64,000 nt of DNA from Shinella kummerowiae. Lineage in GTDB: Bacteria > Pseudomonadota > Alphaproteobacteria > Rhizobiales > Rhizobiaceae. The notes under the pieces are model-generated. The model searched no databases, was not told the origin of the DNA, and saw only the letters and a program-made list of their open reading frames with translations. The number at the start of each line of letters is the position of its first letter. The first letter of the stretch is position 1. Below are positions 1 to 46,993 of the stretch, piece after piece. The stretch is taken from the NCBI RefSeq assembly GCF_009827055.1, contig NZ_WUMK01000003.1, positions 186,001 through 250,000 of the forward strand, read 5' to 3'. A program made the translations under genes and the position numbers.

Positions 1-778
1 CGCCGCCACCGGAGATGCTGACGAAGGCGCCCGGATCCTGGTTCTTGAAGTAGTGCAGCGCCACGTTGTTGCTGTTTTCACCGGTCTTTGCCTGATCCCC
101 GAACCAATAGTAGTGGTAGATCACCGCCCCTTCGATTTCCCCGGCATTGACCGCCTTCATCGCAACGCTGTTGCCCCTGTAGGGTGTCGCGTTTTCCTTC
201 ATCGCCGTCAGCCAGGAAGATGTTACCTCCTCGCCCTTGAGCTGCAGGAGCGCGCCAACGATCGCTTGAAAATCCGCACCGGCCGGCGATGCCCCCCAAC
301 GGCCCTTCCAGGCCGGATCGGCGAGATCGAGCATCGACTTCGGTAGCGTTTCTTCGGTGAGCTTCGTCTTGTCATAGGCAAACACCGTCGATCGCGCTGC
401 GATCCCGGTCCACATGCCGTCTGCCGGGCGATACGCCGGCGGCACCTGATCGAGCGTTTCCTTGTCGACTGGCGCAAAGCGTCCCGCCGTGTCGAGCAGC
501 GCCATGGCCGGCGAGTTTTCCGTCAGGAACACATCGGCCGGCGTCAGGTCACCCTCCTGGAGGATCAGGTTGGCGAACTCCATGTCGCTGCCCTTGCGGA
601 CCACCACCTTGATGCCCGTCTCCTTCGTGAAGGCATCGATCCAGGCCTTTCCGAGCCCTTCATGCTGGGCATTGTAGATGACGAGTTCGCCCGCGTCCTG
701 CGCGCGAGCGCCGGACGTCAGCGACGCCGCTGCAAAGAGCGACAACGCCGCCACCGTCATTCGGATCGACATGTTCAT
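1..778 (-). CDS. Fe(3+)-type ABC transporter substrate-binding protein, C-terminus cut by the window edge
   Basis: Open frame on the minus strand starting at ATG 778 and running off the left edge; about 259 residues are visible, against about 330-340 for the family. An N-terminal signal peptide ends near ARAQDA. The mature start (ELVIYNAQHE) and the YHYYWFG segment match the FbpA/AfuA/SfuA class, in which a paired tyrosine binds ferric iron; sugar-phosphate binders share the fold. It should deliver ligand in the periplasm to the permease and ATPase encoded divergently at 981-3607. The divergent placement of binding protein and membrane genes is less usual than one operon. A second ATG lies at 772. 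The family call is secure; iron as the ligand is inferred. Confidence 0.9.
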   Translation of the reverse strand, partial: MNMSIRMTVAALSLFAAASLTSGARAQDAGELVIYNAQHEGLGKAWIDAFTKETGIKVVVRKGSDMEFANLILQEGDLTPADVFLTENSPAMALLDTAGRFAPVDKETLDQVPPAYRPADGMWTGIAARSTVFAYDKTKLTEETLPKSMLDLADPAWKGRWGASPAGADFQAIVGALLQLKGEEVTSSWLTAMKENATPYRGNSVAMKAVNAGEIEGAVIYHYYWFGDQAKTGENSNNVALHYFKNQDPGAFVSISGGG

Positions 779-980
779 GGTGTTCTCCTGCTCGAAATCC
801 CGGGTGCCGGCGCAAAACTGGCCAACAAAACTCTACTTATAACGGGATTGCGGTCGATGCCAGAAGCGATGTGTCGCGCCGACCGCCACACGACAAACCA
901 TTGCCTTTTACTCAAGAAATCCTTACGGCAAGGCCGGATGGCCGCTGAATGTTGCAACGGCCTCCCCTTGTTCGCGTGAC
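779..980. promoter_or_regulatory. divergent promoter region of the iron-type importer
   Basis: A 202-bp gap separates the divergent binding-protein and permease genes, so promoters for both must lie here or slightly inside the permease frame. I looked for Fur, Irr or RirA-type dyads and saw none that I would defend. Confidence 0.4.
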
Positions 981-2576
981 ATGAAGGCATGGGCCGTGTT
1001 GCAGGATAGCACAGCAGAAGCATTCACCGAGGCATGGCCAGCGCGCAGGCGCATGGGCGCGTCCCGTCCGCATGTTCCGGTGATCGTGTTTGCCGCGTTG
1101 GTGGCCATGTTCAGTCTCGTGCCGCTCGGCTTCATCGGCTGGGTGACCTATGATGTCGGCTGGGAAACGGTAAAGACGCTGGTCTTTCGCCCGCGCGTCG
1201 GCGAACTCATCCTCGGCACCCTCTACCTCGAACTGCTGACCATTCCGCTGTCGATCGCGGTCGCTGTTGGCCTTGCCTGGCTGACGGAACGCACCGACAT
1301 TCCCGGCGCGCGCCTCTGGGCGTGGCTGGCGATAACGCCGCTCGCCGTGCCGGCTTTCGTGCACAGCTACGCCTGGGTCAGCCTCGTTCCGGGCATACGG
1401 GGCCTCGCCGGTGGCGTGTTCGTCGCGGTTCTCGCCTATTTTCCGTTTCTTTATCTGCCGGTGGCCGCGGCTCTCCGCCGGCTGGATCCTGCGGTGGAGG
1501 ACGCTGCCGCCTCGCTCGGCCTTGCGCCCGTCGCCGTGTTCTTCCGCGTGGTCCTGCCACAACTGCGCCTTGCCATCTGCGGCGGCTCGCTGCTGATCGG
1601 CCTGCATCTCCTGTCTGAATACGGGCTGTTCGCGATGATCCGTTTCGACACGCTGGCCACGGCCATCGTCGACCAGTTCCAGTCCTCCTACAACAGCCCG
1701 GCCGCCAGCATGATCGGCGGCGTCCTGGTTACCTGCTGCCTATTCCTGCTCGGCCTCGAAGTGCTGCTGCGCGGCAACGAGCGGTATGCACGCATCGGTG
1801 CCGGCGCGGCGCGGCCAGCCAATCTGCAACGACTGGGGCGCTTCGCTCTGCCCGTCCTGCTTCTGCCGGCAACGCTCGCGATGCTGACGCTCGGCGTACC
1901 GCTGCTGACGCTCGGCCGCTGGCTCTGGCTTGGCGGTGCCGCCATCTGGGACAATGAGGTCACCGGTGCGGTGGGGCAGACCATCGTGCTGGCCCTGGCC
2001 GGCGGCATCCTCGCGACCATGGCTGCGGCCCCCATGGCCTGGCTGTCCGTGCGCGCGCCCGGCCGGCTGCAACGGTTTCTCGAGGCCTGCCACTACTATG
2101 TCGGCTCGCTGCCGGGCGTCGTGGTGGCGCTTGCGCTTGTGTCCGTCACGGTGCGCTTCCTGCTGCCGTTGTACCAGACCTTCGCCCTGCTGCTCGCCGG
2201 CTATGTGCTGCTCTTCCTGCCGCGCGCCATGGTGGGCCTGCGTGCCAGCATCGCGCAGGCGCCGGTGGAGCTTGAGCGCGCGGCCGTGGCGCTCGGTCGC
2301 ACGCCTGGCCAGGCCGTGCGTCAGATCACGCTCAGGCTCGCCGCGCCCGGTGCCGCCGCCAGCGTTGCCCTGGTCTCGCTCGGCATCACCAACGAACTGA
2401 CCGCCACGCTGATGCTCGCTCCGACCGGTGTCGATACGCTCGCCACCCGTTTCTGGGCGCTCACCAGCGAGATCGACTATGTCGCGGCCGCACCCTACGC
2501 GGTGATGATGGTGGTGCTGTCGTTGCCGCTCACCCTCTTCCTTCATGCGCAATCGAAACGGACGGCCGGCCAATGA
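981..2576 (+). CDS. Fe(3+)-type ABC transporter permease, fused two-domain
   Basis: A 531-residue inner-membrane protein with two similar halves, each with about six hydrophobic segments and a cytoplasmic EAA-like loop (around [20 protein letters not shown] in the first half and [20 protein letters not shown] in the second). This doubled layout is typical of FbpB/SfuB/AfuB permeases. The downstream ATPase overlaps by 4 bp (ATGA), and the binding protein is divergent. The start is uncertain: ATG 981 has no clear ribosome site, and ATG 1053 would remove 24 polar residues. The substrate is inferred from the family. Confidence 0.88.
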
Positions 2577-9740: not shown

Positions 9741-11630
9741 ATGAAGACCTCGATCGCCACCGTCTCGCTCAGTGGCGACCTGCGTGACAAACTCGGAGCC
9801 ATCGCCAAGGCAGGTTTTGACGGTGTCGAGATCTTCGAAAACGACTTCCTCGTCTTTGACGAGAGCCCGAAACAGCTCGGCCGCATGGTGCGCGATTTCG
9901 GCCTGGAGATCACCCTCTTCCAGCCATTCCGTGATTTCGAGGGCATGCCGGAACCGCTGCGTAGCCGCACCTTCGATCGGGCCGAACGCAAATTCGACCT
10001 CATGCAGGACATGGGCACGGACCTCGTGCTCGTCTGTTCGAACGTTTCCAGCGCCGCCCTCGGTGGCCTGGACCGCGCGGCAGCCGACTTCCACGAACTC
10101 GGCGAGCGCGCGGCAAAACGCGGCCTGCGGGTCGGGTATGAAGCGCTCGCCTGGGGGCGCCATATCCATGATCACCGGGATGCCTGGGAAATCGTGCGGC
10201 GGGCCGATCACGCCAATATCGGGCTGATCCTCGACAGCTTTCACACGCTCGCGCGCAAGATCGATGTCAATTCGATCCGCTCGATCCCGAAAGAGAAGAT
10301 TTTCATCATCCAACTCGCCGATGCGCCGAAGATCGGCATGGACCTTCTCTACTGGAGCCGACACTTCCGCAACATGCCGGGTGAAGGCGAGTTACCGGTC
10401 GAGGCCTTCATGGCGGCCGTCGCGGAGACCGGCTACGATGGTTACCTGTCGCTCGAAATCTTCAACGACCAGTTCCGCGGTGGCTCGCCCGCCGCCATCG
10501 CAGCCGACGGATACCGCTCGCTGGTCTATCTCGGCGACCGGGTCCGCCGCGCCAATCCCGGTCTTTCGGTGAACGTCCCGGACATGCCGGATCGCAGCCG
10601 TGTCGATGGCGTCGCCTTCGTCGAATTCGCGGTAGACGAGACGGAGGCGCCGGCCCTCGAAACGATGATCAGCACCCTCGGCTTTCACCGGGATGCGCGC
10701 CACAAGACCAAGAAAGTCACCGTGTTCCGGCAAGGTGACGTCCGGTTGGTCGTCAATGCGGATGACCGAGGCTTTGCCAGCTCTTCCTATCTGGTGCACG
10801 GCACATCCGCCTATGCGATGGGTCTTCTCGTCGAAGACGCCTGGGCAGCAAGAGCGCGTGCCATCGCCCTCGGCGCCGAAGCCTTCAAACAGCCGCTCGA
10901 CCGCGGCGAGATCGAAATGCCGGCGGTACGCGGCGTCGGCGGCGGCATCATCTACCTTCTGGACCGAAGCACCGACCTCGCCCGCATCTGGGACATCGAG
11001 TTCGATCCGATCGAAGACGGGGCGGGCACGCGCGACGCAGGCCTCCAAACCATCGATCACCTCGCGCAGACGATGCCCTATGACGAGCTTCTCACCTGGC
11101 TGCTGTTCTACACCGCGATCTTCGACGCCGGGAAAACACCCATGGTCGATATCGTCGATCCGTCCGGCCTCGTGCGCAGCCAGGCGATCGAAAACAGCGA
11201 AGGGTCGTTGCGCATCACCATGAACGGCGCGGAAAACCGCAACACTGTCGCCGGGCGCTTCATCACGGAAACCTTCGGTTCCGGTATCCAGCACCTCGCC
11301 TTCACCACCGACGACATCTTCGCCACGGCCGGCGCGCTGGCCGCCAACGGTTTTGCCGCACTTGAGATTTCACCCAACTATTACGACGATCTGGAAGCGC
11401 GCTTCGGCCTGGACCCTGCCCTCACCGAAAAACTCCAGTCCCACAACATCCTTTACGACCGCGACGAACACGGCGAGTATTTCCAGCTCTACAGCCCCAC
11501 CTACCGTGAAGGCTTCTTCTTCGAAATCGTCCAGCGCAAGGGCTATCGCGGCTATGGGGCGGCGAATGCGATTTTCCGCATCGCCGCACTGCGCCGCCAT
11601 CTTCGTCCCATGGGCATGCCGCGCGCTTGA
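9741..11630 (+). CDS. quiC: 3-dehydroshikimate dehydratase fused to a 4-hydroxyphenylpyruvate dioxygenase-like domain
   Basis: A 629-residue two-domain protein. Residues 1-280 form a xylose-isomerase-like TIM barrel with metal-site segments such as GLILDSFHTLAR and YLSLEIFND; this domain turns 3-dehydroshikimate into protocatechuate. Residues 290-629 are a VOC/HPPD-like domain that keeps the iron triad positions (His440 in IDHLA, His518 in GIQHLAF, Glu595 in FFEIVQR). This fusion is known in proteobacterial QuiC-type enzymes. AAGGAGGA precedes the ATG. It closes the TRAP-shikimate operon; the ring-cleavage genes for protocatechuate are not in the window. Confidence 0.88.
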   Translation: MKTSIATVSLSGDLRDKLGAIAKAGFDGVEIFENDFLVFDESPKQLGRMVRDFGLEITLFQPFRDFEGMPEPLRSRTFDRAERKFDLMQDMGTDLVLVCSNVSSAALGGLDRAAADFHELGERAAKRGLRVGYEALAWGRHIHDHRDAWEIVRRADHANIGLILDSFHTLARKIDVNSIRSIPKEKIFIIQLADAPKIGMDLLYWSRHFRNMPGEGELPVEAFMAAVAETGYDGYLSLEIFNDQFRGGSPAAIAADGYRSLVYLGDRVRRANPGLSVNVPDMPDRSRVDGVAFVEFAVDETEAPALETMISTLGFHRDARHKTKKVTVFRQGDVRLVVNADDRGFASSSYLVHGTSAYAMGLLVEDAWAARARAIALGAEAFKQPLDRGEIEMPAVRGVGGGIIYLLDRSTDLARIWDIEFDPIEDGAGTRDAGLQTIDHLAQTMPYDELLTWLLFYTAIFDAGKTPMVDIVDPSGLVRSQAIENSEGSLRITMNGAENRNTVAGRFITETFGSGIQHLAFTTDDIFATAGALAANGFAALEISPNYYDDLEARFGLDPALTEKLQSHNILYDRDEHGEYFQLYSPTYREGFFFEIVQRKGYRGYGAANAIFRIAALRRHLRPMGMPRA

Positions 11631-35363: not shown

Positions 35364-35727
35364 GGTATCCTCCTGGGCAGCCAACGAAGGATATTAAGAT
35401 ATAAAATACATAGATTTTATAGATAAAAGAATCCCGCATACCGCGCGACGGTAGATATTGTGGCGCGCGATAATCCCGTTTCGAGGGTTTTTTTCGCGTG
35501 GCCGCCACGTCCCCCATCGCCACGTCCCTAATGAGGGCGTCGAAGCGGGATGCCGACAGGTCTGCGAATGCGTGGCTGAAAGGCATGGCATTCCAGTACC
35601 GACGGCTTAGATTCTTGGGACGTTTTATTTCGCTCAATGGCACTGCATGCGCCAAATCGGCGGCGAAATGTCGAGAAAGAGCCGCCTTTGGGGAAAACAA
35701 GCGGCAATATATGGCCATCTAACCTTA

Positions 35728-35741
35728 TGCACAGCCTTGCA
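35728..35741. promoter_or_regulatory. candidate operator of the organophosphate LacI regulator, site 1
   Basis: TGCACAGCCTTGCA. It differs by one base from TGCACAGCCGTGCA at 45193-45206 upstream of the importer-phosphatase operon. Confidence 0.6.
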
Positions 35742-35831
35742 AAGCTGCTTAAGTCCTTTCCGAGAAGGTTATTTCGCCATGCCTTCAGCCTTGCGGAACC
35801 TTCCGTTTTCAGCAGAAACTGCTCGCCGTCT

Positions 35832-35845
35832 TGCACATTCCTGCA
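35832..35845. promoter_or_regulatory. candidate operator of the organophosphate LacI regulator, site 2
   Basis: TGCACATTCCTGCA, sharing the outer TGCACA and TGCA blocks with site 1. It lies 48 bp upstream of the chosen lacI start. Confidence 0.5.
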
Positions 35846-35852
35846 AAAATGG

Positions 35853-35866
35853 TTCAAACCTGTGCA
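35853..35866. promoter_or_regulatory. candidate operator of the organophosphate LacI regulator, site 3
   Basis: TTCAAACCTGTGCA, which on the minus strand reads TGCACAGGTTTGAA. It is spaced 21 bp (two turns) from site 2 and directly upstream of the lacI ribosome site. Confidence 0.4.
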
Positions 35867-35893
35867 AGCGGGAACAGCGAAGGAAAGAGGAAC

Positions 35894-36910
35894 GTGGCGA
35901 TAGTGAAGGCCAAACCAAAAAAATCCTCGGTCAGCGCCATCCGGGTGGCGGAGCTTGCCGGTGTTTCGCGTTCGGCGGTATCACGCACCTTCACAGATGG
36001 GGCGAGCGTCTCGCCGGCGACGCGCACCAAGGTGCTCGCGGCGGCCGAAAAGCTCGGCTACCACGTCAACCATCTGGCGCGCGGACTGATCCACCATCGC
36101 TCGGGCATCGTCTGCCTGATCGTCGCCGAGATGCAGGCGCCGTTCCAGGCCAATGTGGTCGAGACCACGACGCGCAAGCTTCAGGCGATCGGCAAGGTCG
36201 TGATGGTGCTGAACACAGCCGGGCAGCCGGAAAATGTTGAGGCGGCGCTGCGCCAGACGTTGAACTACCGCGCCGAGGCAACCGTCGTCGTGTCCGGCGC
36301 GCCGCCGCTCTCGCTGATCGAGACCTGCATCGAAAACGGCCAGCGCGTCATCCTCATCAACCGCGACGATGCCATCACCGGCCCGGAATTCGTGCTGGTC
36401 GAGAATGAAAACGCGGCGCGCGAGGCCTGCCTGTTGCTGCACCGGGCCGGCTGCCGCAACCTCGCCGTGGTCAGTTCCACCGCCGGCACGTCCAGCATCA
36501 TGGCGCGCGAGCAATCCTTCGTCGCCGCCGCTGCAGAACTGGGCCTGACGGCACAGGTCAGTCGCGCCGGACCGACCGGCTATGCGACGGGTGCGGAAGG
36601 TGCGCGCCAGTTGCTCGGTGCCTCGAACCGGCCGGACGGCGTGTTTTGCGTCACGGACCTCCTGGCGCTTGGCTTCATGGATGTGGCGCGGCAGGAATTC
36701 CGTCTCGCCATTCCGGACGACCTCTGCGTCGTCGGCTTCGATGACATTCCGGAGGCCGGTTGGCTCGCCTACAACCTAACAACCTTCCGCCAGCCGATCG
36801 GCGCCATCGCCGATCATATCGCCAGCATAATCGAAAAGGACGAGCCCGAGCCGGCCCCGCCGAAGCGCCTGCCGACGCAGGTCGCGTGGCGCAAGAGCGT
36901 CCGCCCTTAA
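35894..36910 (+). CDS. LacI family regulator, probable controller of the importer-phosphatase operon
   Basis: About 338 residues from GTG 35894, which has GGAAAGAGG upstream; the frame is open back to TTG 35831, but that start would fall in candidate operators. The helix-turn-helix reads SAIRVAELAGVSRSAVSRTF and the hinge VNHLARGLIHHRSG; the effector domain follows. Its stop shares TTAA with the convergent metallophosphoesterase stop. Matching dyads before this gene and before the operon's first gene at 45017 link the two. Confidence 0.86.
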   Translation: MAIVKAKPKKSSVSAIRVAELAGVSRSAVSRTFTDGASVSPATRTKVLAAAEKLGYHVNHLARGLIHHRSGIVCLIVAEMQAPFQANVVETTTRKLQAIGKVVMVLNTAGQPENVEAALRQTLNYRAEATVVVSGAPPLSLIETCIENGQRVILINRDDAITGPEFVLVENENAAREACLLLHRAGCRNLAVVSSTAGTSSIMAREQSFVAAAAELGLTAQVSRAGPTGYATGAEGARQLLGASNRPDGVFCVTDLLALGFMDVARQEFRLAIPDDLCVVGFDDIPEAGWLAYNLTTFRQPIGAIADHIASIIEKDEPEPAPPKRLPTQVAWRKSVRP

Positions 36911-38496
36911 AGCGGTGTGATCACCATATCCGGGCGGCTGAGGGAGAAATCGCGGTTCGGATGGCGATGGAGATATGCCCCCATCATCCGCAAGAGCGTG
37001 GCGAAGCGCGCCGCAAGGCTGTCACCGTTAAGCAACGGCGCCTGCACCGAAAGGCGGCGGTAGAATGCGAGCCGATCGGGCGCGATGTCCTCGTGACTGA
37101 GTTCGCCGGCCTTGCGCAGCCTGTACCAATCCTCGACGAGCGCCGTCAGCGGCATAGCCGGCGCATCATCGGCGTCGAGGTCGAGATGCCGCATCAGATC
37201 CGCCACCGACGCCTCGGCCACGAAGTCCACCATGTCCTGTGGCCATTCGCGCGCCAGATAACGCCCATGCACAAGGTCGACCAGATGACGACTGAGGAAC
37301 TGGCCGTGATCAGGCGCGAAACTTGCCGAAGGCTCGGCCGTGCCCGCCTTTCGCGCCTCGGCCCGGTAGGCTGCAAAGGCCGCGTCGTGGCCCGGCACCT
37401 GCCGCAAGGGCTGCGTACGGATTTCGGTCCGATCGGCATGAAGGTCGACGATCTTGAGGCCCGGTCCATAGCCGACCGGCGACGGAACGGCGATATTGGC
37501 GAAACATCCGCGCGCCGTTTCGTGGCGGGCGGTATCGTTGACATGCAGATGGCCGGAAAAATGGAGGGGAACACCCGTCGCGGCAAATGCATCGGCAACA
37601 GCGATGGTGGGCGCGCGCCGTGCGAGGCCGGTCGCGCCGAACAGCGCAACCTCCTCCCTTGACGCGCCACCCAGTGGATCGAGCGCCGGATAATGCGAGA
37701 AGGCAACGAGATGTTTGCCCCCTGCCCTCGCCTGTGCCGCCACGTCCGCCATCCAGGCAAACAGATGCGCGCGATGTTGCAGCACGGCTCGCCAGCCGCC
37801 ATCGGTCGGGTCGTGGAACTGCGCGGGATCGGCAAAGTCGCTGGCGCCATCGCGCGGAACGCAGACATTGGCATCGATGGCGAGCACCCACAGCCCTTCT
37901 ATGGGCTCGACGAGATAGGAGGCGTCGATCATCCGGCACGGCGTGCTGCCGTCCTGGCTCAGCACCGTGTAGCTGCGTGCCGACCAGTCGGGATTGGTGC
38001 CGAAAGGACTTTCCCAGTGCAGATCGCCTTCTTCCGGCTCGAAACCGAAGCTGGAAAGCATGGCGAGTGCTTCGCCCGTGCCGAGCGTCGCGGCCTCGGC
38101 GCAGTCGGCGCTTCTCACCATGATCGGCGTGCCGTCCGGCGCAAGGAAACTCTTGTCCTGCGGCCGGCCGGCGAGCGCGTAGAAATCGTGGTTGCCGGGT
38201 GTCATCAGCACGCGGATACCGTGGCGCTCGCGGTATGCCTCGACGATCGACAGCGCCGCCAGGATGTTCGGCCGCTGGCCATCGTCGGTGAGGTCGCCGA
38301 CAAGCAGCACGACGGGCGCGCCAGCCTCTACCGCGCAATCAAGCGCGGCGCGAAAGGCCGGCACGCTTTCGTTGAAGATACGGGTCGAGGCGGCGGTTTC
38401 GGCGAAGCTGCGCACGGCACCTTCCAGGCCAAAACCCTCCGGCACCCAGGTGCAATCATGCACATGGGGGTCGGCAATCACGGCGATGCGGATCAT
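36907..38496 (-). CDS. calcineurin-like metallophosphoesterase
   Basis: A 529-residue protein from ATG 38496, overlapping the phosphatase stop by 4 bp. All five metal-site motifs are visible: VIADPHVHD, VGDLTDDG, TPGNHDF, FSHYPALDP and FSGHLHVND. These bind two metal ions and hydrolyse phosphomono- or diesters. The C-terminal 150 residues (after RTQPLRQVPG) form a helical extension I do not recognise. No signal peptide is seen, so it acts in the cytoplasm. It is the last gene of the seven-gene operon. Confidence 0.88.
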   Translation of the reverse strand: MIRIAVIADPHVHDCTWVPEGFGLEGAVRSFAETAASTRIFNESVPAFRAALDCAVEAGAPVVLLVGDLTDDGQRPNILAALSIVEAYRERHGIRVLMTPGNHDFYALAGRPQDKSFLAPDGTPIMVRSADCAEAATLGTGEALAMLSSFGFEPEEGDLHWESPFGTNPDWSARSYTVLSQDGSTPCRMIDASYLVEPIEGLWVLAIDANVCVPRDGASDFADPAQFHDPTDGGWRAVLQHRAHLFAWMADVAAQARAGGKHLVAFSHYPALDPLGGASREEVALFGATGLARRAPTIAVADAFAATGVPLHFSGHLHVNDTARHETARGCFANIAVPSPVGYGPGLKIVDLHADRTEIRTQPLRQVPGHDAAFAAYRAEARKAGTAEPSASFAPDHGQFLSRHLVDLVHGRYLAREWPQDMVDFVAEASVADLMRHLDLDADDAPAMPLTALVEDWYRLRKAGELSHEDIAPDRLAFYRRLSVQAPLLNGDSLAARFATLLRMMGAYLHRHPNRDFSLSRPDMVITPL

Positions 38497-39134
38497 GCGG
38501 AAACCTTCACCACAGCGCCGGAGCGCGCGCGATCCGCCTCGACGATCCGCACCCAGCCGGCAGCACTCTCGGCGGCGGCAATCAGCATCGGCTTCGGTGT
38601 CTCGTGCCACTCGTCGGGGCGCAGTTCGCGTTTTTCACGAACATGATCGACGGCAGAGGCGAGCGTCGGGAATTCCTTGGGGATTTGCAGATGCAGCAGC
38701 AGGGCGGCGAGGATGACAGAACGCGAGCGCCCGGCGCGGCAATTCACCAGCACGTTACCGCGCTCGCGCATCGGATAGCTCGGCTTCTCCGGCAGCACCT
38801 GTTGCAACGCGCCGAGCAGTTGGTAGTACCCGGCGAGGAACATGGTGTCGGGATTGCCCGGACCATCGACGATACCGAGCTTGTAGTAACGGATCGGTGC
38901 CGGGCCGTAGCCGACGCGGCTGTCGTGAGAGACCTCGTCGGGTGCCGCGACATAGTTGAAGTCGAGATTGACTGCACAGTTCAGCACCGTGGAAATGCCG
39001 CTCGCGCGCAGAAGCGGCACGTCCGACGCACCCTCACGACCGCCGACGAAGAGATCGACGCCGAAGCCCGGCAGGTTTTCATAAACGCGGCTGATCAGCG
39101 GGCGGTCATAGTGGCGGCTGGGTTTTTCGGTCAT
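38493..39134 (-). CDS. dual-specificity/tyrosine-type phosphatase (CX5R)
   Basis: A 213-residue protein with the active-site loop NCRAGRSRS: Cys132 nucleophile and Arg138, with Asp90 (GIVDGPG) a candidate general acid. This is the dual-specificity phosphatase fold, whose bacterial members can also act on phosphoinositides or phosphosugars. It overlaps both neighbours by 4 bp within the importer-phosphatase operon. In this setting a small-molecule substrate is more likely than a protein. Confidence 0.85.
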   Translation of the reverse strand: MTEKPSRHYDRPLISRVYENLPGFGVDLFVGGREGASDVPLLRASGISTVLNCAVNLDFNYVAAPDEVSHDSRVGYGPAPIRYYKLGIVDGPGNPDTMFLAGYYQLLGALQQVLPEKPSYPMRERGNVLVNCRAGRSRSVILAALLLHLQIPKEFPTLASAVDHVREKRELRPDEWHETPKPMLIAAAESAAGWVRIVEADRARSGAVVKVSA

Positions 39135-39976
39135 GCGGTTCTCCGATGCTCTTCATCCGCCGGGACAAGCAGGTCCGGCCCGGACAGAAGGGGAATGCCG
39201 GTCGCGTCCGACAGGGTATTGGCAACGCCCGGCGCCGCGGCCAGCACCGGCGCCCCCTCGGTCAGGCCTCCGAGCGACAGGAACGGTCCGGTGACGCCAC
39301 CGGCCTCATGAACGAGAAGCAGGCCGGCCAGGCAATCCCAGGAATTCATGTGCAGCTCCGCATAACCATCGCTGCGCCCATCGGCAACATAGGCGAGGCC
39401 GAGCGCCCCGCAGGCGCCGCGCCGCACATTGCTGCCGGCCTCGAACAACGCATTGACGGCGCTGATATAACGGGCGAGCGGCCGGCGGTTCGACCAGCCC
39501 ATCTCGAAGGAGGTGGCGGCGATGTCCGTGGTGGCGGACACGCGGATCGGCTTGCCATTGAGGCTCGCCCCTCGACCACGGCGTGCGAGATAGACCTCAT
39601 CGAGCACCGGATTGACGATGGCGCCAAGCTGCACCTCGCCATTAGCGACGAAGGCGATGGCGACGCAGAAATGCGGGATCGCACGGGCGAAATTGGCGGT
39701 GCCGTCGATTGGATCGACCACCCAAGCCTGAACGCCCGGCTCGCCGCCCCCCTCCTCGCCGAGGAACCCGTCTTCGGGGAAGACGTCGGCAATGCGGGCG
39801 CGGACATGGTTTTCCACCTGCCCGTCGGTCTCTGTCAGGTAATCCTGCGGCCCCTTCATGCTGACCGACTGCCCCGTCTGCCGCGCGAAACCGGCGCGGG
39901 CGAGCTCTGCCGCCTCGCAAACCAGTTCCGCAAGGAGGGCCTCCCGGCGAGCGAGCGCCTCATCGCCAATCGTCAT
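39131..39976 (-). CDS. inositol monophosphatase family protein (second copy in operon)
   Basis: A 281-residue protein with the full lithium-sensitive phosphatase set: LTETDGQVE, FLGEEGG, VDPIDGTANF and NSWDCLAG. These bind magnesium and remove phosphate from inositol or sugar phosphates. Overlaps of 4 bp on both sides tie it to its paralogue and the CX5R phosphatase. The two paralogues share fold and motifs but are diverged, so they probably differ in substrate. Confidence 0.88.
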   Translation of the reverse strand: MTIGDEALARREALLAELVCEAAELARAGFARQTGQSVSMKGPQDYLTETDGQVENHVRARIADVFPEDGFLGEEGGGEPGVQAWVVDPIDGTANFARAIPHFCVAIAFVANGEVQLGAIVNPVLDEVYLARRGRGASLNGKPIRVSATTDIAATSFEMGWSNRRPLARYISAVNALFEAGSNVRRGACGALGLAYVADGRSDGYAELHMNSWDCLAGLLLVHEAGGVTGPFLSLGGLTEGAPVLAAAPGVANTLSDATGIPLLSGPDLLVPADEEHRRTA

Positions 39977-40830
39977 GCACGCAGTCCTTCCGTTTTAAAA
40001 ATCCTGTTCATTCTCTGGCTTCGCCCGACGGAGATTTCTTCGGCAATGCCAACCACCTTCGGGTAGTCCGCGCCGCGCCGCAGGGCGATGTAACCGGGGT
40101 GCCTGTGCGCCGGCGCATCCGCCGCACATTTCCCGAGCGACAGCGGCAGGTAACGCCCGCCCGCCTGTCGCAGGATGAGGCTTGCCGCCGCCACATCCCA
40201 GGGATTGACGCTGAAGCCGAGTGCGGCATCCGCCCACCCCGCCGCGACATGGGCGATGGAGAGCGCAGCGCTGCCGGGCCGGCGCACCGTCGCGACGGTT
40301 TCGACCAGCCGGCCGAAGCGGTCGAGTGCCGCGTCCCGGCCGTCCAGCGCAAAATCCCGCGCCACGGGATAACCGGTGATCAGCGTCGCGTGTGGCTCGG
40401 CAGCGGCATTCGCCGGCGCCAGTGGCTGGTCGTTCAGCCAGGCGCCGGCGCTGGAGGCGGAGAAGATCGCCCCCGAAACCGGGTCATGGATTGCCGCCGC
40501 AACAACCGTGTCGTCGACGACCGCTCCGACCGAGGTGCACCAGAACGCGATACCCGCGGCAAAATTCGACGTGCCGTCGATCGGATCGACGAACCATTGA
40601 ACCCTGCCCGTGCCGGTCGTGCCGCCCTCTTCCCCCATGAAGGTGGAATCGGGCACTTCGTGGAAGATCAGCGCGCGGATTGCGGCTTCCGCCCGCCGGT
40701 CGTGTTCCGTAACGGGATCGTGGCGGTCGCGCTTGTAGTCCACCGCCATCTGCTGCCGGAACGCCGCCAAAAGGGCGGGCGCGGGCAGAAGGGCAGCGGC
40801 GATGGCAGTACGAAGCAGCGGATCGGTCAT
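39973..40830 (-). CDS. inositol monophosphatase family protein (first copy in operon)
   Basis: A 285-residue protein with DPVTEHDRRAE, FMGEEGG, VDPIDGTSNF and NPWDVAAASL, the conserved metal-binding motifs. Predicted cytoplasmic phosphatase of a sugar or inositol phosphate. It begins 53 bp after the binding-protein gene, with a 9-bp stem-loop in the gap. An analogy is AccG of agrocinopine catabolism, an enzyme of this family that dephosphorylates an imported sugar phosphate. Confidence 0.88.
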   Translation of the reverse strand: MTDPLLRTAIAAALLPAPALLAAFRQQMAVDYKRDRHDPVTEHDRRAEAAIRALIFHEVPDSTFMGEEGGTTGTGRVQWFVDPIDGTSNFAAGIAFWCTSVGAVVDDTVVAAAIHDPVSGAIFSASSAGAWLNDQPLAPANAAAEPHATLITGYPVARDFALDGRDAALDRFGRLVETVATVRRPGSAALSIAHVAAGWADAALGFSVNPWDVAAASLILRQAGGRYLPLSLGKCAADAPAHRHPGYIALRRGADYPKVVGIAEEISVGRSQRMNRIFKTEGLRA

Positions 40831-40850
40831 TAGAAAACTCGTGTCATGGA

Positions 40851-40875
40851 GGGCGGGCCGTTTGCCGGCCCGCCC
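40851..40875. other. stem-loop between binding-protein and phosphatase genes
   Basis: GGGCGGGCC (40851-40859), loop GTTTGCC, GGCCCGCCC (40867-40875): a perfect 9-bp stem just after the binding-protein stop (minus strand). Likely stabilises the importer message and lowers expression of the phosphatase genes. Confidence 0.6.
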
Positions 40876-40883
40876 GGTCTTGC

Positions 40884-41990
40884 TCAGCGCTTGTAGTGAA
40901 CGCGCCAGAAATCCTGCCAGTCCTGCCGGCTGTCCCAGTCTTCCAGGCCAGTGGCAGGGTTGTAGGTGAGCATCGCGTCGAGATGTTTGCCGATGCCGGA
41001 CGGCTCATCGGCCGGAAGGCCGACGGTGCTGTTGGAGGAAAGCTTGCCGTCGTCGGCCTGCGGCGCGATGCCCTCGGCGGTCATCGCATAGTGCACGAAG
41101 AGCTTGGCGGTGTTCGGGCTGTCGCTGCCCTTGACGATGACGCCAACCGTCGGATTGGAGAAGCCGATGATCGGATCCACGCCAGCGCAGAGGCCGAGCG
41201 TGAAGCCTTTTCCTGCATTGTCGCGGAACTTGGCGGAAGAGACGAGACCGATGAAAGGTTCGCTCTGGCCGGGGGCGGCAACCGCTTCCGCGGCGGCTGA
41301 GTCGGAATCCGTCAGGAGCGGGCCGTTGGCGGCAAGCGCGGCGACGAAGGCCTGCGTTGCGCTACCGAGGTCGGTCTCCAGCTTCTTGCCGTACTGCTTC
41401 TCATAGGCGGCGGCGATCTTGTCGTCGATACGGCTGCGCATCTGGTTGAACCAGTCGGTATAGGACGGCTTGCCGAGCGGGTCCTGCATCGAGACCTTGC
41501 CCTTCCACTCCGCCTCGGTGAGCTGCCAGATATTGGTGATCGGGCACTTGTCGTAGAGCTTGGTGTTGTAGGCGAGGATGTTCGGGCTTGAGACGATCAG
41601 CAACGGGTTCTGCGCCTCCGACGAGATGTCCTTGGCCAGATCCGGCGGCACCCAGTTCTCGACGAAACCGGCCGGCATGAGCTGGCCGATCACGGCGGAC
41701 GGATCCGAGATGAAGGAGACATCCGTCTGGATGTTGCCGGACTGCGATTCGCGAATGATCGTTTCGAGCTGCGCGGTCGCCTTGGACTTCGAGCCCTCAG
41801 CCTTCAGGCCGTATTTGGCATTGAAGGCCTCGACCATGTCGACGATCTTGCCGGTGCTGTCATAGACCGACAGCGGCGGCTCCTTCTTCGCCGCCTCGAT
41901 GAGCGAGTCGAGGTTGAAATCCTCCGCCAGCGCCCCGCCGCCCATCGCGGCGGCCAGCACCACGCCTGCCAATAAACCGTATGTCCTCAT
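40884..41990 (-). CDS. AfuA/FbpA-like ABC transporter substrate-binding protein
   Basis: A 368-residue periplasmic protein from ATG 41990 (GGAGGAGAAC upstream), signal cleavage near GALAEDF. Frame sequence upstream to 42413 overlaps the ATPase gene and is not used. It is of the iron/sugar-phosphate/phosphonate binding class. The paired tyrosines of true ferric binders are not evident, and the linked phosphatases argue for a phosphorylated organic ligand, as for AfuA of Actinobacillus, which binds sugar phosphates. The ligand is inferred. Confidence 0.85.
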   Translation of the reverse strand: MRTYGLLAGVVLAAAMGGGALAEDFNLDSLIEAAKKEPPLSVYDSTGKIVDMVEAFNAKYGLKAEGSKSKATAQLETIIRESQSGNIQTDVSFISDPSAVIGQLMPAGFVENWVPPDLAKDISSEAQNPLLIVSSPNILAYNTKLYDKCPITNIWQLTEAEWKGKVSMQDPLGKPSYTDWFNQMRSRIDDKIAAAYEKQYGKKLETDLGSATQAFVAALAANGPLLTDSDSAAAEAVAAPGQSEPFIGLVSSAKFRDNAGKGFTLGLCAGVDPIIGFSNPTVGVIVKGSDSPNTAKLFVHYAMTAEGIAPQADDGKLSSNSTVGLPADEPSGIGKHLDAMLTYNPATGLEDWDSRQDWQDFWRVHYKR

Positions 41991-42069
41991 GTTCTCCTCC
42001 TTCGTAATTGCGTCACATCCGTCTCTTCCCATCGGATGCGACGAGGGTTCAGTTTCATTTGCCTCATGT

Positions 42070-43191
42070 TCAGGCGGCACGCGCCAGCACGTCGTCCGCC
42101 TCGGCAAGCCGGAGGCCTGCCGCGTCGAAGACGTGCACAGCCGTTGGGCGCACATGCACCCACACCCGCTCCCCGCCGCGCAGCGCAGGGCTTTCCGTGG
42201 TGGTGGCGAACAGCGCGCGTCCATCGACCTTGAGTTCGATGATCCAGCTGCCGCCGGTTGGCAGGATGCCCGTGACCTCGGCCGCATGGCGGAAGCTGCC
42301 GCCGGGAACGGCAGCCTCCGAACGCGCGATCTGGAGAGCTTCCGGACGGAAGCCCACCGAGCCGACCCCTGCGCTCTCGCCGAGACGACCAGCGAGCCAA
42401 TGCGATGCGGCACGATCCAGCGCGTGGGTGGTGGCCGCTTCGAGGATGTTGATCGGCGGGCTGCCGACGAATTCGGCGACGAAGCGGTTGGCCGGCCGGT
42501 CGTAGATATCGTTCGGCGTGCCCAATTGCTGGAGGCGGCCTTCGCTCATCACGGCAATTGAGGTGGCGAGCGTCATCGCCTCCCATTGATCATGGGTGAC
42601 GAAGACGATGGTCGTGCGGAATTCCGCGTGGATGCGCTTCAGCTCGGCCCGCATTTCGAGGCGCAGACGCGCATCAAGATTGGAGAGCGGCTCGTCGAGC
42701 AGCAGCACGCCTGGATTGACCGCCAGCATGCGGGCGAGCGCCACGCGCTGCTGCTGGCCACCGGAGAGCTGCGAGGGATAACGATGGCGGTATTTCTCGA
42801 TGTCAAGCGCCTTCATCACCTTCTCCACCCGCGCCTCGCGCTCGGCCTTCGGCACCTTGCGCAGGCGCAGGCCGAAATCGGTGTTGCGCTCGATGGTGAG
42901 GTGCGGCCAGAGCGCATAGGACTGGAAGACCAGGCCCATGCCGCGTTTTTCCGGACCGACGAAGGCGCCGCGTGCTGGACTGTCGATCACCCTCTCGCCG
43001 ACGTGGATTTCGCCGTCCGTCAGGTTTTCGAGACCGGCGATCATGCGCAACGTCGTCGTCTTGCCGCAGCCGGAAGGGCCAAGCAGGCACATGAATTCGC
43101 CGTCATGGATGTGAAGATCGAGGTCACTGACGGCATTGGGCGAACCGCCGCCATAGGACTTCTGGACATTGCTGAGAACGATATCGGGCAT
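42070..43191 (-). CDS. AfuC/PotA-like ABC transporter ATP-binding protein
   Basis: A 373-residue ATPase from ATG 43191, overlapping the permease stop by 1 bp (TGATG). Walker A GPSGCGKTT at 38-46, signature LSGGQQQR, Walker B VLLLDEPL, switch VTHDQWEA, and a C-terminal TOBE-like region from about residue 240. Energises the fused permease. Confidence 0.9.
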   Translation of the reverse strand: MPDIVLSNVQKSYGGGSPNAVSDLDLHIHDGEFMCLLGPSGCGKTTTLRMIAGLENLTDGEIHVGERVIDSPARGAFVGPEKRGMGLVFQSYALWPHLTIERNTDFGLRLRKVPKAEREARVEKVMKALDIEKYRHRYPSQLSGGQQQRVALARMLAVNPGVLLLDEPLSNLDARLRLEMRAELKRIHAEFRTTIVFVTHDQWEAMTLATSIAVMSEGRLQQLGTPNDIYDRPANRFVAEFVGSPPINILEAATTHALDRAASHWLAGRLGESAGVGSVGFRPEALQIARSEAAVPGGSFRHAAEVTGILPTGGSWIIELKVDGRALFATTTESPALRGGERVWVHVRPTAVHVFDAAGLRLAEADDVLARAA

Positions 43192-45017
43192 CAGGTTCCA
43201 AGTCCCTCGGCAAGGTTTGTGCGGGTCAGCCGCTGGGCGAGCACCGTGCCGCCATAGGCAAGACCGGCGATGATCAGCACCACGGCGTTTGCGGCCTGGG
43301 TGTAATTGTAGTCGACGAGGCGCAGCGAGAAGGTCGTCAGCACATCCGTGGCGGGCACGGCGAGGATGACGAAAAGGCTGAGCCCCTTGATGCCCGAAAT
43401 GAAGGGCAGAAGAATACCGGTGACGAGCGAACCCTTCTGGATCGGGATGACGATGGACGTCATACGCCGAAACCAGCCCGCCCCGACGATCTGCGCCGCC
43501 TCTTCCGGATCCTTGCCGAGCTGCATCATCGCGGAGATGCCGGCGCGGGATGCATAGGGCATCTGATCTGCCATCAACGCGAGCACGAGAATCAGTGTTG
43601 TGCCGTAGAGACCGGGGATCGGCCCGCGCTGCACGGCGAAGAGCGAGAGATAGGCGGCGGCAAAGGCGATGCCCGGCACGAGATAGGGCATGAACGTCAC
43701 CTGCCGCAGGAAGATCGCCAGCGGACGGATGGTCGTGCGCACCACGACATAACCGGTGAGCACACCGAGAATGCCCGAGCAGATGGAGGCGATGCCGACG
43801 ATCGTGATCGTATTGAACGCCGCCTGCCAGAGATCGGGACTGAACAGAATTCCGGTGCGCATGGCGACCGTTGGCAAGTCCTGACCGATCCAGTAGTCGA
43901 GCGTGAAGTTGGAGAGCGCAAAACTGCCCGGCTGATGCATGACGGTCGACAGCGCAAGCGTCAGCAGCGGCATGCCGACCGACAGCATGAAGACGACCCC
44001 GGCAAAGCCCGTCGCGGGCCAGCGCAGGCCCTTCAGACGCGACAGCCGGTTCATCGAGCCCTTCGAGCCGACGGTGACGAAACGGCGCGCTTCGCGGGCA
44101 AGATAGGCATCGACCATGATGGCAAGCACGCCGATCAGCATGATCGCGCCGGCCAGCACACCCGCCACGCCCGTCTGGCGCGAACCGATGGAGCGATAGA
44201 GCGAGGTCGCCAGCACATCGAATTTCACCGGCAGGCCGAGCACATAGGGCACGCCGAACTCGCCAAGGCATTTTGCGAAGATGAGCAGCACGGCCGAAAG
44301 CAGCGCCGGACGCATCAATGGCAGGATGACCTGCGCGGCGACGACCCAGCCGGATGCACCAAGAATGCGCGCGGAATCCTCCAGCTGGCTGTCGAAACGG
44401 CGCAGCGCCGAGCCAAAGAGCAGGATGACAAAGGGCGTGTAATGCAACGCGAGAATGATGGTGATCGGCACCTGGCCATAGGCGAGCCAGTCCGGCGGCG
44501 TCAGTCCGATCGCCTCGAACCAGCCCGGCTGGCCGCCGACGGTCCGGTTCTTGAAAAGCGTGTTCCAGGCAAGCGCAAAGGTCCAGGCCGGCAGCATATA
44601 GGGCACGATGAGCGCGGTGGCGAACCAGCGGCGGCCGAACATGTCGGTGCGCGCGATCAGCCAGGCCAGCACGCCGCCGACGGCAAGCGAAATGGTGATC
44701 GCACCGAAGGCCACTTTCAGCGTGTTGAGCAGTGGCTCCCAGAAGAGGTCGTATGCGACCGGTGACACGAAGGCGCGGTAGAGATAGTAGGACGTGAAGC
44801 CGCCCGTCCCGCCGCCGGTGCGCCGCTCGTCGCCGAATTGCACAGTCGCCGCATCCGCAAGGATAGACAGGATCGGCAAGACAATGAGATAGGCGAAGAG
44901 TGCCGCCATCAGGATGGCGATCACCGTTGTCGGCTCGCGCAAGGCCAGCCGCAACCGGTAACGCCAGCGCGCACCGCCAACGGGCGCCGGCGTCAAAAGC
45001 GCATCAGACGAGGCCAT
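43191..45017 (-). CDS. AfuB-like ABC transporter permease, fused two-domain
   Basis: A 608-residue membrane protein from ATG 45017; the open frame to 45491 includes an operator region and is not used. Two halves with about six hydrophobic segments each, EAA-type loops at EDSARILGASGWVVAAQVIL and EEAAQIVGAGWFRRMTSIVI. This is the first gene of the operon permease-ATPase-binding protein-four phosphatases. Candidate LacI sites lie 31 and 175 bp upstream. Confidence 0.88.
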   Translation of the reverse strand: MASSDALLTPAPVGGARWRYRLRLALREPTTVIAILMAALFAYLIVLPILSILADAATVQFGDERRTGGGTGGFTSYYLYRAFVSPVAYDLFWEPLLNTLKVAFGAITISLAVGGVLAWLIARTDMFGRRWFATALIVPYMLPAWTFALAWNTLFKNRTVGGQPGWFEAIGLTPPDWLAYGQVPITIILALHYTPFVILLFGSALRRFDSQLEDSARILGASGWVVAAQVILPLMRPALLSAVLLIFAKCLGEFGVPYVLGLPVKFDVLATSLYRSIGSRQTGVAGVLAGAIMLIGVLAIMVDAYLAREARRFVTVGSKGSMNRLSRLKGLRWPATGFAGVVFMLSVGMPLLTLALSTVMHQPGSFALSNFTLDYWIGQDLPTVAMRTGILFSPDLWQAAFNTITIVGIASICSGILGVLTGYVVVRTTIRPLAIFLRQVTFMPYLVPGIAFAAAYLSLFAVQRGPIPGLYGTTLILVLALMADQMPYASRAGISAMMQLGKDPEEAAQIVGAGWFRRMTSIVIPIQKGSLVTGILLPFISGIKGLSLFVILAVPATDVLTTFSLRLVDYNYTQAANAVVLIIAGLAYGGTVLAQRLTRTNLAEGLGT

Positions 45018-45047: not shown

Positions 45048-45064
45048 TCGCAAAGCCGTGCAAT
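45048..45064. promoter_or_regulatory. candidate LacI operator upstream of importer-phosphatase operon, proximal
   Basis: TCGCAAAGCCGTGCAAT, matching the distal site at 14 of 17 positions and sharing the core AGCCGTGCA. It begins 31 bp before the permease start, where a repressor would block initiation. Confidence 0.55.
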
Positions 45065-45180: not shown

Positions 45181-45216
45181 TCAACATGATATTGCACAGC
45201 CGTGCATTCATGTTGA
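45181..45216. promoter_or_regulatory. nested dyad with LacI-type core upstream of importer-phosphatase operon, distal
   Basis: The core TTGCACAGCCGTGCATT (45192-45208) holds TGCACAGCCGTGCA, nearly identical to the site before lacI. It is framed by a perfect 9-bp inverted repeat, TCAACATGA (45181-45189) and TCATGTTGA (45208-45216), whose centre is 1 bp from the core centre. Confidence 0.6.
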
Positions 45217-45562: not shown

Positions 45563-46993
45563 ATGAGTCGTCTCATCGTTGTTTCCAATCGCGTTCCCGT
45601 TCCTGACAAACGCGGCACGGCACCTGCCGGTGGCCTGGCCGTCGCCCTCCAGTCGGCGCTCAAGACACGCGGCGGTCTATGGCTCGGCTGGTCCGGCCAA
45701 TCCTGCGCCGAGGACGCCGTCGGGCCGCTGAGAACCGTGAAGGACGGCAATATCGAATACGCGCTGACGGACCTGACCGAGCGCGATGTCGAAGAATACT
45801 ATCAGGGCTTTGCCAACCGCGTGCTTTGGCCGATCTGCCACTACCGGCTGGATCTAGCCGAATATGGCAGGCGCGAAATGACCGGCTATTTCCGCGTGAA
45901 CCGTTTTTTCGCCAGCCGTCTTTTGCCCTTGATCCAGGACGACGACCTCATCTGGATTCACGACTATCATCTCATTCCTCTCGCCGCGGAACTGCGTCGG
46001 CTGGGCGTGAAGAACCGCATCGGCTTCTTCCTGCACATCCCCTGGCCCTCGCCGGATGTGTTTCTCACCATGCCGGTGCACGACGAGTTGCTGAAAGGCC
46101 TCACCGCCTATGATGTGATCGGCTTCCAGACCGATCATGACCGGAACAATTTTGCCGATTGCCTCGCGCGCCAGGACATGGGACATCGGCTGGACATGAC
46201 CCGTTTTGTCGTCGGCGAACGGGCCTTCACCACCAAGTCCTACCCGATCGGCATCGAGACCACCGAATTTGCCGGCCTCGCGAAACGGGCGGCGGAAACC
46301 ACGCTGCACAAGCGCATGCTGCAGAGCCTCGACGGCAAGGAGCTGATCATCGGCGTCGACCGGCTCGACTATTCCAAAGGCATCACGCAGCGCATCGATG
46401 CCTTCGAGACCTTCCTCACCCGTCATGAGGAAAGCCAGCGCAAGGTCACGCTGCTGCAGATCACGCCGAAATCGCGCTCCGAAGTGCCTGAATACGAGGC
46501 CATGCAGCGCGCCGTGGCGGAACAGGCCGGCCGGGTGAACGGCGCGCTCGGAACCGTGGACTGGGTGCCGATCCGCTACGTCAATCGATCGCTGCGACGC
46601 CCCGCTCTGGCGGGCCTCTATCGCATGGCCAGGCTTGCGCTGGTCACACCCCTGCGCGACGGCATGAACCTCGTCGCCAAGGAATATGTCGCGGCGCAGA
46701 ACGAGGACGACCCCGGCGTCCTCCTGTTGTCGCGTTTTGCGGGCGCCGCGCGCGAACTGAAGGATGCCGTGCTCGTCAATCCCTACGACGTCGAGGGCAC
46801 GGCCGAGGCCATCGCCCGCAGCCTCGTCATGCCGCTGGAGGAGCGTCGCGAACGCTGGAAAAGCATGATGACCGTGCTGTGCACCAACGACGTGTTCGCC
46901 TGGTGCGACACGTTTCTTGAGGATCTTGCCGGAGGCAAGGCGGAAGAGAGCGGTTCCCATTCGGTAGAGGCGCGCAGCAGGAACATCGCCTGA
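45563..46993 (+). CDS. otsA: trehalose-6-phosphate synthase
   Basis: A 476-residue GT20 glycosyltransferase of normal length. Visible motifs include the N-terminal VVSNRVPVP with the glycine loop [39 protein letters not shown], the sugar-nucleotide site [11 protein letters not shown] and [14 protein letters not shown] near the C-terminus. It makes trehalose-6-phosphate from UDP-glucose and glucose-6-phosphate for osmotic and drought protection. No otsB is adjacent. The nearby organophosphate operon is on the opposite strand and not evidently linked. Confidence 0.95.

Follow-up and report, generated by a model that had tools for sequence, protein, structure and literature searches.

Which compound could call for one importer and four different phosphatases encoded in a single operon? 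The question is raised by a locus of Shinella kummerowiae lying in a stretch of 64,000 nucleotides (NCBI RefSeq assembly GCF_009827055.1, contig NZ_WUMK01000003.1, positions 186,001 to 250,000 of the forward strand), referred to below as the window and numbered from its first letter. Seven minus-strand genes at 36907-45017 encode the permease, ATPase and binding protein of an ATP-binding cassette (ABC) importer, two enzymes of the inositol monophosphatase (IMPase) family, a CX5R phosphatase and a calcineurin-like metallophosphoesterase (Table 1). A first examination of the letters, made without database searches and called here the sequence-only reading, had proposed that an organophosphate enters the cell intact and loses its phosphates there. 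The comparative evidence supports this proposal and would narrow it to inositol phosphates, a cyclitol phosphate having been one of the suggestions made. The reading that we favor, and hold to be probable, is that of a real and widely conserved locus encoding a LacI-controlled importer of phytate-derived inositol phosphates, which are dephosphorylated in the cytoplasm. Gene content, conservation, a shared operator sequence and phytase-like neighbours are established here. Three lines of evidence suggest inositol phosphates as the ligand: the phytase-type neighbours, the shared operator, and the occurrence of this operator together with a related LacI at the phyK operon of Klebsiella.

Conservation of the module

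All seven genes start with ATG and contain no internal stops. Each of the three junctions between enzyme genes is a 4-bp overlap, the permease and ATPase genes overlap by 1 bp, and the remaining intergenic gaps measure 79 and 53 bp. The seven-gene operon of the sequence-only reading is thus found with clean frames, and its family calls agree with Pfam, the DSPc match of the CX5R phosphatase (E 1.1e-5, 25.7 bits) being below the Pfam cut-off of 33.5. The extent of the locus had been drawn too narrowly, as an eighth gene and operator-like sites at both ends were overlooked; this gene encodes a LacI-family protein and is convergent with the metallophosphoesterase gene, with a 4-bp overlap. Residues that we take to be catalytic are invariant in the alignments, namely C132...R138 in the CX5R enzyme, D/H/N residues in the metallophosphoesterase and E/D residues in the IMPases.

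In order to retrieve related clusters, an alignment of the CX5R phosphatase was scanned against one genome per species (84,980 species), and the best 80 of 227 relatives were kept. The counts below refer to these 80 CX5R-selected loci and are limited to the retrieved stretch of each. A permease of at least 50% identity is present in 74 of the 80, and every one of these 74 also carries an IMPase (at least 45%) and a LacI gene (at least 38%). A sodium/phosphate (Na/Pi) transporter gene accompanies 41 of the 74 and the metallophosphoesterase 32, while all four phosphatases of the window occur together in 21. The gene-neighbourhood search advised in the sequence-only reading therefore reveals an arrangement that is not due to chance, though the loci were picked via one of its genes. 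Among the other six loci, one (L068) is a contig-end fragment with no permease match; in L072, L080, L081, L084 and L108 the permease matches near the CX5R gene are distant (27-38%). The latter five, where the CX5R family stands beside a more distant ABC importer, represent a parallel version of the system.

The module is hosted by Rhizobiaceae and their relatives, by Rhodobacterales and by gammaproteobacteria. Near-identical clusters were found in Sinorhizobium sp. RAC02 (90% DNA identity) and on Shinella plasmids. The minimal gammaproteobacterial form consists of permease, ATPase, binding protein, IMPase, CX5R phosphatase and LacI, and in Klebsiella and Erwinia the IMPase and the CX5R enzyme are fused as one protein. 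None of the 11 distinct gammaproteobacterial clusters (L021, L022, L023, L092, L096, L097, L103, L104, L110, L122 and L123) includes the metallophosphoesterase. Within the order to which Brenneria belongs, few genomes carry the CX5R phosphatase: 3 of 394, with Brenneria itself counted. The Na/Pi gene is the sole recurrent neighbour identified outside the module.

Since the discovery sample began from the CX5R enzyme, a second sampling was begun from the permease. Matches with E<=1e-150 were obtained in 17 of the 297 genomes of the window's family (presumably Rhizobiaceae), its own genome included, and correspond to 17 places besides that of the window, 9 of which were already among the 80 loci. 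Twelve of these places carry an IMPase and the CX5R phosphatase, two carry the CX5R phosphatase with a phytase-like gene and a porin, and one (permease 49%) has an IMPase of 37% and a weak HAD-like hydrolase; the remaining two are considered with the points against our reading. Two further importers deserve mention in their own right. A 63% permease relative at L156:6683-11912, devoid of phosphatases and adjoined by a PhnD-like binding-protein gene, is a sister importer. Another importer, composed of two binding proteins, a permease, an ATPase and an IMPase of its own (40% identical to IMPase-2), is encoded immediately upstream of the Shinella HZN7 cluster (L015:1-5779).

Phytase-type neighbours

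On Klebsiella plasmids, the importer genes are preceded by those of a KdgM-type porin and a histidine acid phosphatase, the latter being carried by all four plasmid records that contain at least 80% of the region. Its nearest PDB entry is the 3-phytase 2wnh (E 8.5e-82), glucose-1-phosphatase following at 3.9e-39. In another enterobacterium (G486), lacI is followed on the same strand by genes for a KdgM porin and for a phosphatase that shares 50% identity with that of Klebsiella. Two genomes of the window's own family, belonging to one genus (41-42% GC in the stretch), display the order phosphatase, Porin_2, permease, ATPase, binding protein and CX5R phosphatase; the phosphatase tested (L154) also has 2wnh as best PDB match (E 4e-61, against 2.8e-39 for glucose-1-phosphatase). 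In Vibrio sp. HDW18 a divergent neighbour matches the histidine acid phosphatase 6rxd (5.1e-70) and the multiple inositol-polyphosphate phosphatase (MINPP) 7zgf (9.3e-66). Two phosphatase types with phytase relatives therefore adjoin the same importer, and the PhyK-like type is found in three different placements relative to it. Judging from these similarities, all of the cluster phosphatases may be phytases.

The search was extended to plasmids and to other alphaproteobacteria. Relatives of the G486 phosphatase appear in nine plasmid records, four being the Klebsiella importer clusters (50-52%) and five others more distant (30-33%); of the three inspected among these five, two are the phyK operon and one, from Azospirillum, lacks such neighbours. 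MINPP relatives appear in eight plasmid records, and the two contexts inspected are the Vibrio cluster and an Aeromonas locus. The L154 phosphatase found no match with E<=1e-50 in 385 alphaproteobacterial genomes, an empty answer that is not proof of absence. No match to either of two reference phosphatases was obtained in 8 of the 11 distinct gammaproteobacterial clusters, a comparison in which other phytase classes could be missed.

A shared operator and its regulator

An inverted-repeat search upstream of the permease gene returned TTGCAC-N4-GTGCAA (operator pattern TTGCACNNNNGTGCAA). With at most one mismatch, this pattern is found within 400 bp upstream of the permease in 45 of 83 clusters, as compared to 5 of 1,660 dinucleotide-preserving shuffles; the weak point of this count is that the operator was discovered and counted in the same upstream regions, and that the relatives are not independent. 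A search for palindromes with a central CG in the same position gave nothing consistent. The operator is also found ahead of IMPase-2 (18/43), lacI (17/79) and Na/Pi genes (11/41). It is rare ahead of IMPase-1 (1/60), the CX5R gene (4/82) and the binding-protein gene (2/169), and was observed ahead of neither the metallophosphoesterase (0/33) nor the ATPase gene (0/78). The shuffles used for these gene-by-gene counts preserve base composition only (6 matches in 410 shuffles for the Na/Pi set), and lacI and Na/Pi genes can share a single site. Such a distribution suggests one regulon able to include the phosphate transporter. In the Vibrio cluster the operator lies between the divergent phosphatase and importer genes, and RAC02 (L018) displays the same O1/O2 pair as the window, with a one-mismatch site also ahead of lacI.

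The window itself contains six sites with at most two mismatches, a number not clearly above chance (the shuffles average 2.7, and 6 in 100 of them hold six or more). Four of the six fall within the two regulatory regions of the locus, and their placement alone is notable. A terminator scan lists the inverted repeat of O1 as terminator-like on the plus strand. Between 44900 and 45700, no promoter-like match was obtained on the strand of the operon and a single one on the plus strand. Exact operator cores TGCACNNNNGTGCA occur at five places in the genome, against one for the reversed pattern. The four other core places lie inside mechanical open reading frames and were dropped as regulon members; one of them, C33:323334, fits the full pattern as well as O1, which is therefore not unique by score.

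The strongest operator point comes from outside the discovery set. In two Klebsiella records (L164 and L166), the operator stands just ahead of the IMPase gene of the phyK operon, with 0 and 1 mismatch. The order of this operon is LacI, IMPase, an organophosphate antiporter (GlpT/UhpT-like) and PhyK, the phytase of L166 differing very little from 2wnh, the crystallised enzyme (E 2.2e-263). The LacI proteins of the phyK operon are 37% identical to that of the window and possess the same SRSAVSR helix, presumably the recognition helix. Both the operator TTGCACNNNNGTGCAA and a related LacI, as would be expected of a phyK-type regulon, are thus found at the window locus. Relatives of the PhyK-operon LacI occur in 320 plasmid records, 40 of which were listed; one of four contexts inspected is inositol-phosphate-like and three are not. 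E. coli genomes searched with the phyK operon or with the Klebsiella importer cluster gave no match. In L164 the transporter of the phyK operon is annotated in three pieces.

Ligand of the importer and alternative substrates

The AlphaFold model of the binding protein (predicted local distance difference test, pLDDT, 93.7) adopts the fold of MctA, FbpA, AfuA and opine binders, and AlphaFold combined with Foldseek failed to separate the ligand classes. Residues K48, K68, K254, R256, K316 and R355 are invariant in 53 sequences, and six invariant Lys/Arg would suit a highly charged ligand. Three substrates other than inositol phosphates were also weighed.

An inositol or glycerol phosphodiester, for instance glycerophosphoinositol or inositol 1,2-cyclic phosphate, could be opened by the metallophosphoesterase and finished by the IMPase and CX5R enzymes; we regard this as unlikely, though it is the best of the alternatives. 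The metallophosphoesterase may indeed be a phosphodiesterase, as its model (pLDDT 94.6) is nearest to Lmo2642, then to sphingomyelinase and GpdQ types. In Martelella a homologue adjoins ugpQ and the genes of a sugar-type ABC importer, and in Pseudoalteromonas one has a phosphoinositide phospholipase C as its neighbour. A Rhizobium operon (L170:1582-8769) also unites a sugar-type ABC importer, a glycerophosphodiesterase, an IMPase and a LacI that is 42.5% identical to that of the phyK operon; its operator site, with two mismatches, does not stand out from chance in 15 kb. However, the metallophosphoesterase is patchy in the clusters related to that of the window, its frequency of 32/74 falling to 0/11 in gammaproteobacteria, so that diester opening cannot be the defining step, and the phytase-like neighbours point to monoesters. 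The L170 operon is, in its own right, a candidate glycerophosphoinositol uptake system. A second metallophosphoesterase copy (40%) is present elsewhere in the genome of S. kummerowiae (C37:345321-346967, L014).

Slightly less likely still is an AfuABC-like importer of ordinary sugar phosphates accompanied by broad cytoplasmic phosphatases. IMPase-family enzymes can be broad, and the best PDB matches of the binding-protein profile are 4r72-4r75 (E 3.6e-8), which we take to be AfuA, with the glucose 6-phosphate binder 8x1a also among the matches. On the other hand, imported glucose 6-phosphate would need no phosphatase, and the cluster phosphatases favor 3-phytase over glucose-1-phosphatase by the E values given above. 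The sugar contacts of AfuA include H205, D206 and E229 (PMC4546632). The glutamate of the PCEG motif, which probably corresponds to E229, is replaced by a hydrophobic residue in the family of the window's protein, the alignment not reaching the H205/D206 region. The analogy with AfuABC drawn in the sequence-only reading is therefore weakened: AfuA stands as the nearest solved sequence, but one of its sugar-contact residues seems to be replaced.

A ferric-iron or metal-complex importer, next to which the phosphatases would be bystanders or would release the metal from an organophosphate, is very improbable, for although database records label the permease 'iron ABC transporter permease' and the binding-protein fold is FbpA/MctA-like, the adjacent tyrosine pair of Campylobacter FbpA (YY of 1y4t), presumably iron ligands, aligns with P-F246, the regulator is of LacI type and the only recurrent extra neighbour encodes a phosphate transporter. 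F246 is kept in at least 90% of the 53 sequences, and a protein binding ferric iron only, a case raised against its own proposal by the sequence-only reading, is disfavored by this alignment.

Proposed pathway and points against it

The import of inositol phosphates can be briefly described as follows. The most likely substrate, the lower inositol phosphates that remain when phytate is broken down, would enter through the binding protein and ABC importer. Phosphates would be removed in the cytoplasm by the CX5R phosphatase and both IMPase-family enzymes, joined in this branch by the metallophosphoesterase, which may open diesters. Free myo-inositol would enter the iol pathway and surplus phosphate would leave the cell, in many relatives perhaps via the co-located Na/Pi transporter. 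Inositol monophosphate tends to remain after the action of histidine acid phytases and would then have to be imported and cleaved by an IMPase; where a phytase is kept in the clusters of relatives, the first cuts would be made outside the cell. The ligand, the order of dephosphorylation, binding by the repressor, its inducer and the direction of phosphate transport are those that we infer for this scheme.

Several results bear on the fate of the products. The iolE gene is above cut-off in 11 of 13 hand-picked genomes, with two places in that of S. kummerowiae and one of the 13 below cut-off, and 2 of 14 control genomes are above cut-off as well. The Na/Pi protein of relatives combines Na_Pi_cotrans and PhoU domains, and YjbB, a protein of this kind, is reported to promote export of inorganic phosphate (Pi) (PMC11389368). 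Three Na/Pi genes are present in the S. kummerowiae genome, none of them at this locus. Control by PhoB was considered and rejected, the best box found at the operon having 5 mismatches, the same as most shuffles. Regulation by a LacI protein, with no Pho box at the operon, is in keeping with a role in carbon supply rather than phosphorus scavenging.

A number of observations weigh against the favored reading. As regards the importer, the fold of its binding protein is common to iron, citrate, opine and sugar-phosphate binders, and two permease-centred places (permease 63% and 60%) have no phosphatases; with 2 places of 17, the routine lack of phosphatases that would have counted against the sequence-only reading was not borne out. 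The link to phytases is also uneven. Only 3 of the 11 gammaproteobacterial clusters have a phytase-like neighbour, as do only 2 of the 17 loci retrieved through the permease and a single one of the 80 CX5R-selected loci (two reference phosphatases), and PhyK itself shares only about 37% identity with the phosphatase of the Klebsiella cluster. IMPase, LacI and a nearby operator are all missing from the two phytase clusters of the window's own family, and one of these two genomes (G719) is also the one without an iolE match. The genomes of Brenneria, V. salinus and Marinomonas have one His_Phos_2 gene each, away from the cluster, and the Aeromonas MINPP relative has no importer match within 6 kb. 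The genome of S. kummerowiae contains no His_Phos_2 and no beta-propeller phytase, so that the phytase expected of a phyK-type regulon is missing for the two classes searched. According to PMC12838507, the gene neighbourhood of the phytase is not conserved. As regards regulation, Rhizobium LacIs of unrelated context are 41% identical to the window's LacI, versus 37% for the PhyK-operon LacI, and also have the SRSAVSR helix, with no site of at most two mismatches in 15 kb. Finally, the Na/Pi protein scores above the NCBIfam threshold for a sodium-dependent Pi transporter, a name according to which it could import.

Having neither a histidine-acid nor a beta-propeller phytase, S. kummerowiae would feed on phytate that other organisms have already degraded in part. 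We lean, by a little more than even chances, toward a dedicated route in which whole inositol (poly)phosphates are imported, phytate degradation is finished in the cytoplasm by up to four phosphatases of three folds, and phosphate is exported. Partly degraded phytate could in this way serve as carbon source for bacteria that lack a classical phytase, the genes being governed by a type of LacI regulon shared with the phyK operon.

Relation to known systems

The AfuABC hexose-phosphate importer belongs to the same ABC importer class, which is already known; the proposed inositol-phosphate substrate would be new for it. The words phosphatase and inositol are absent from the main text of the AfuABC paper (PMC4546632). 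The vitamin B6-phosphate importer P5PAB (PMC8427247) likewise takes up a phosphorylated small molecule via an AfuA-type binding protein; P5PA is only borderline against the binding-protein profile (E 0.26), and 'phosphatase' does not appear in the main text of that paper. The phyK operon shares with the window its logic, its operator, the LacI helix and an IMPase (40% to IMPase-2 in L166), but its organophosphate transporter is of the secondary type and not an ABC importer, and its annotated genes include no CX5R phosphatase or metallophosphoesterase.

UgpBAECQ resembles the window operon in joining an ABC importer to a cytoplasmic phosphodiesterase, for glycerophosphodiesters. It differs in that the window permease fits no Ugp model and no Pho box stands out at the operon, whereas ugp is PhoB-dependent (PMC11389368). 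The best NCBIfam match of the ATPase is UgpC, below cut-off. On the NCBIfam equivalog models of the 2-aminoethylphosphonate importer PhnU2/PhnT2, the permease reaches 133.5 of the 593.25 bits required and the ATPase 323.3 of the 457.7 bits, both below cut-off. A link with SMb20155-8 of S. meliloti (PMC4414408) was considered and could not be confirmed, as the sequence record carries no annotation.

Bacterial work appears to centre on secreted phytases. Phytate is said to reach 50% of soil organic phosphorus (PMC11219571). Inositol regulators (IolR) are among those covered by a survey of LacI regulons (PMC4052901), the main text of which mentions neither phytase nor phytate. No named bacterial importer of lower inositol phosphates, nor such an operon, was found in the available text of the open-access PMC literature (PMC11219571, PMC12838507, PMC4052901 and PMC12712290 included). 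If correct, the favored reading would explain the four-phosphatase operon, provide a gene marker for phytate-fragment feeding by rhizobia and their relatives, and make the operator usable to seek further inositol-phosphate genes.

Features of the locus

Table 1. Genes and operator-like sites of the S. kummerowiae locus (window coordinates)
Feature	Position	Strand	Remarks
Two-domain ABC permease, FbpB/AfuB/PhnU2 type, 608 aa	43191-45017	-	Pfam BPD_transp_1
ABC ATPase, 373 aa	42070-43191	-	Pfam ABC_tran + TOBE_2
Solute-binding protein, 368 aa	40884-41990	-	Pfam SBP_bac_11; signal peptide by eye
IMPase-1, 285 aa	39973-40830	-	Pfam Inositol_P; no signal peptide seen by eye
IMPase-2, 281 aa	39131-39976	-	Pfam Inositol_P; copy retained in minimal gammaproteobacterial clusters
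CX5R dual-specificity-type phosphatase, 213 aa	38493-39134	-	Pfam DSPc
Calcineurin-like metallophosphoesterase, 529 aa	36907-38496	-	Pfam Metallophos; accessory
LacI-family repressor	35849-36910	+	Start uncertain: ATG 35849, or GTG 35894 or 35903
Putative LacI operator O1	45192-45207		1 mismatch to TTGCACNNNNGTGCAA; upstream of permease gene
Weaker operator-like O2	45048-45063		2 mismatches; between O1 and permease start
Operator-like site	35831-35846		1 mismatch; directly upstream of lacI
Weaker operator-like site	35727-35742		2 mismatches; upstream of lacI

A gene of the Glyco_transf_20 (trehalose-6-phosphate-synthase) family at 45563-46993 is divergent from the operon, O1 being located in the intergenic region between them. 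Pieces of another ABC importer, consisting of an SBP_bac_6 binding-protein gene and a divergent permease gene, occupy window positions 1-2573. At 9741-11624, a single protein combines an AP_endonuc_2 TIM barrel with a Glyoxalase_5 (HPPD) domain, and its gene adjoins Shikimate_dh_N and DctP genes.

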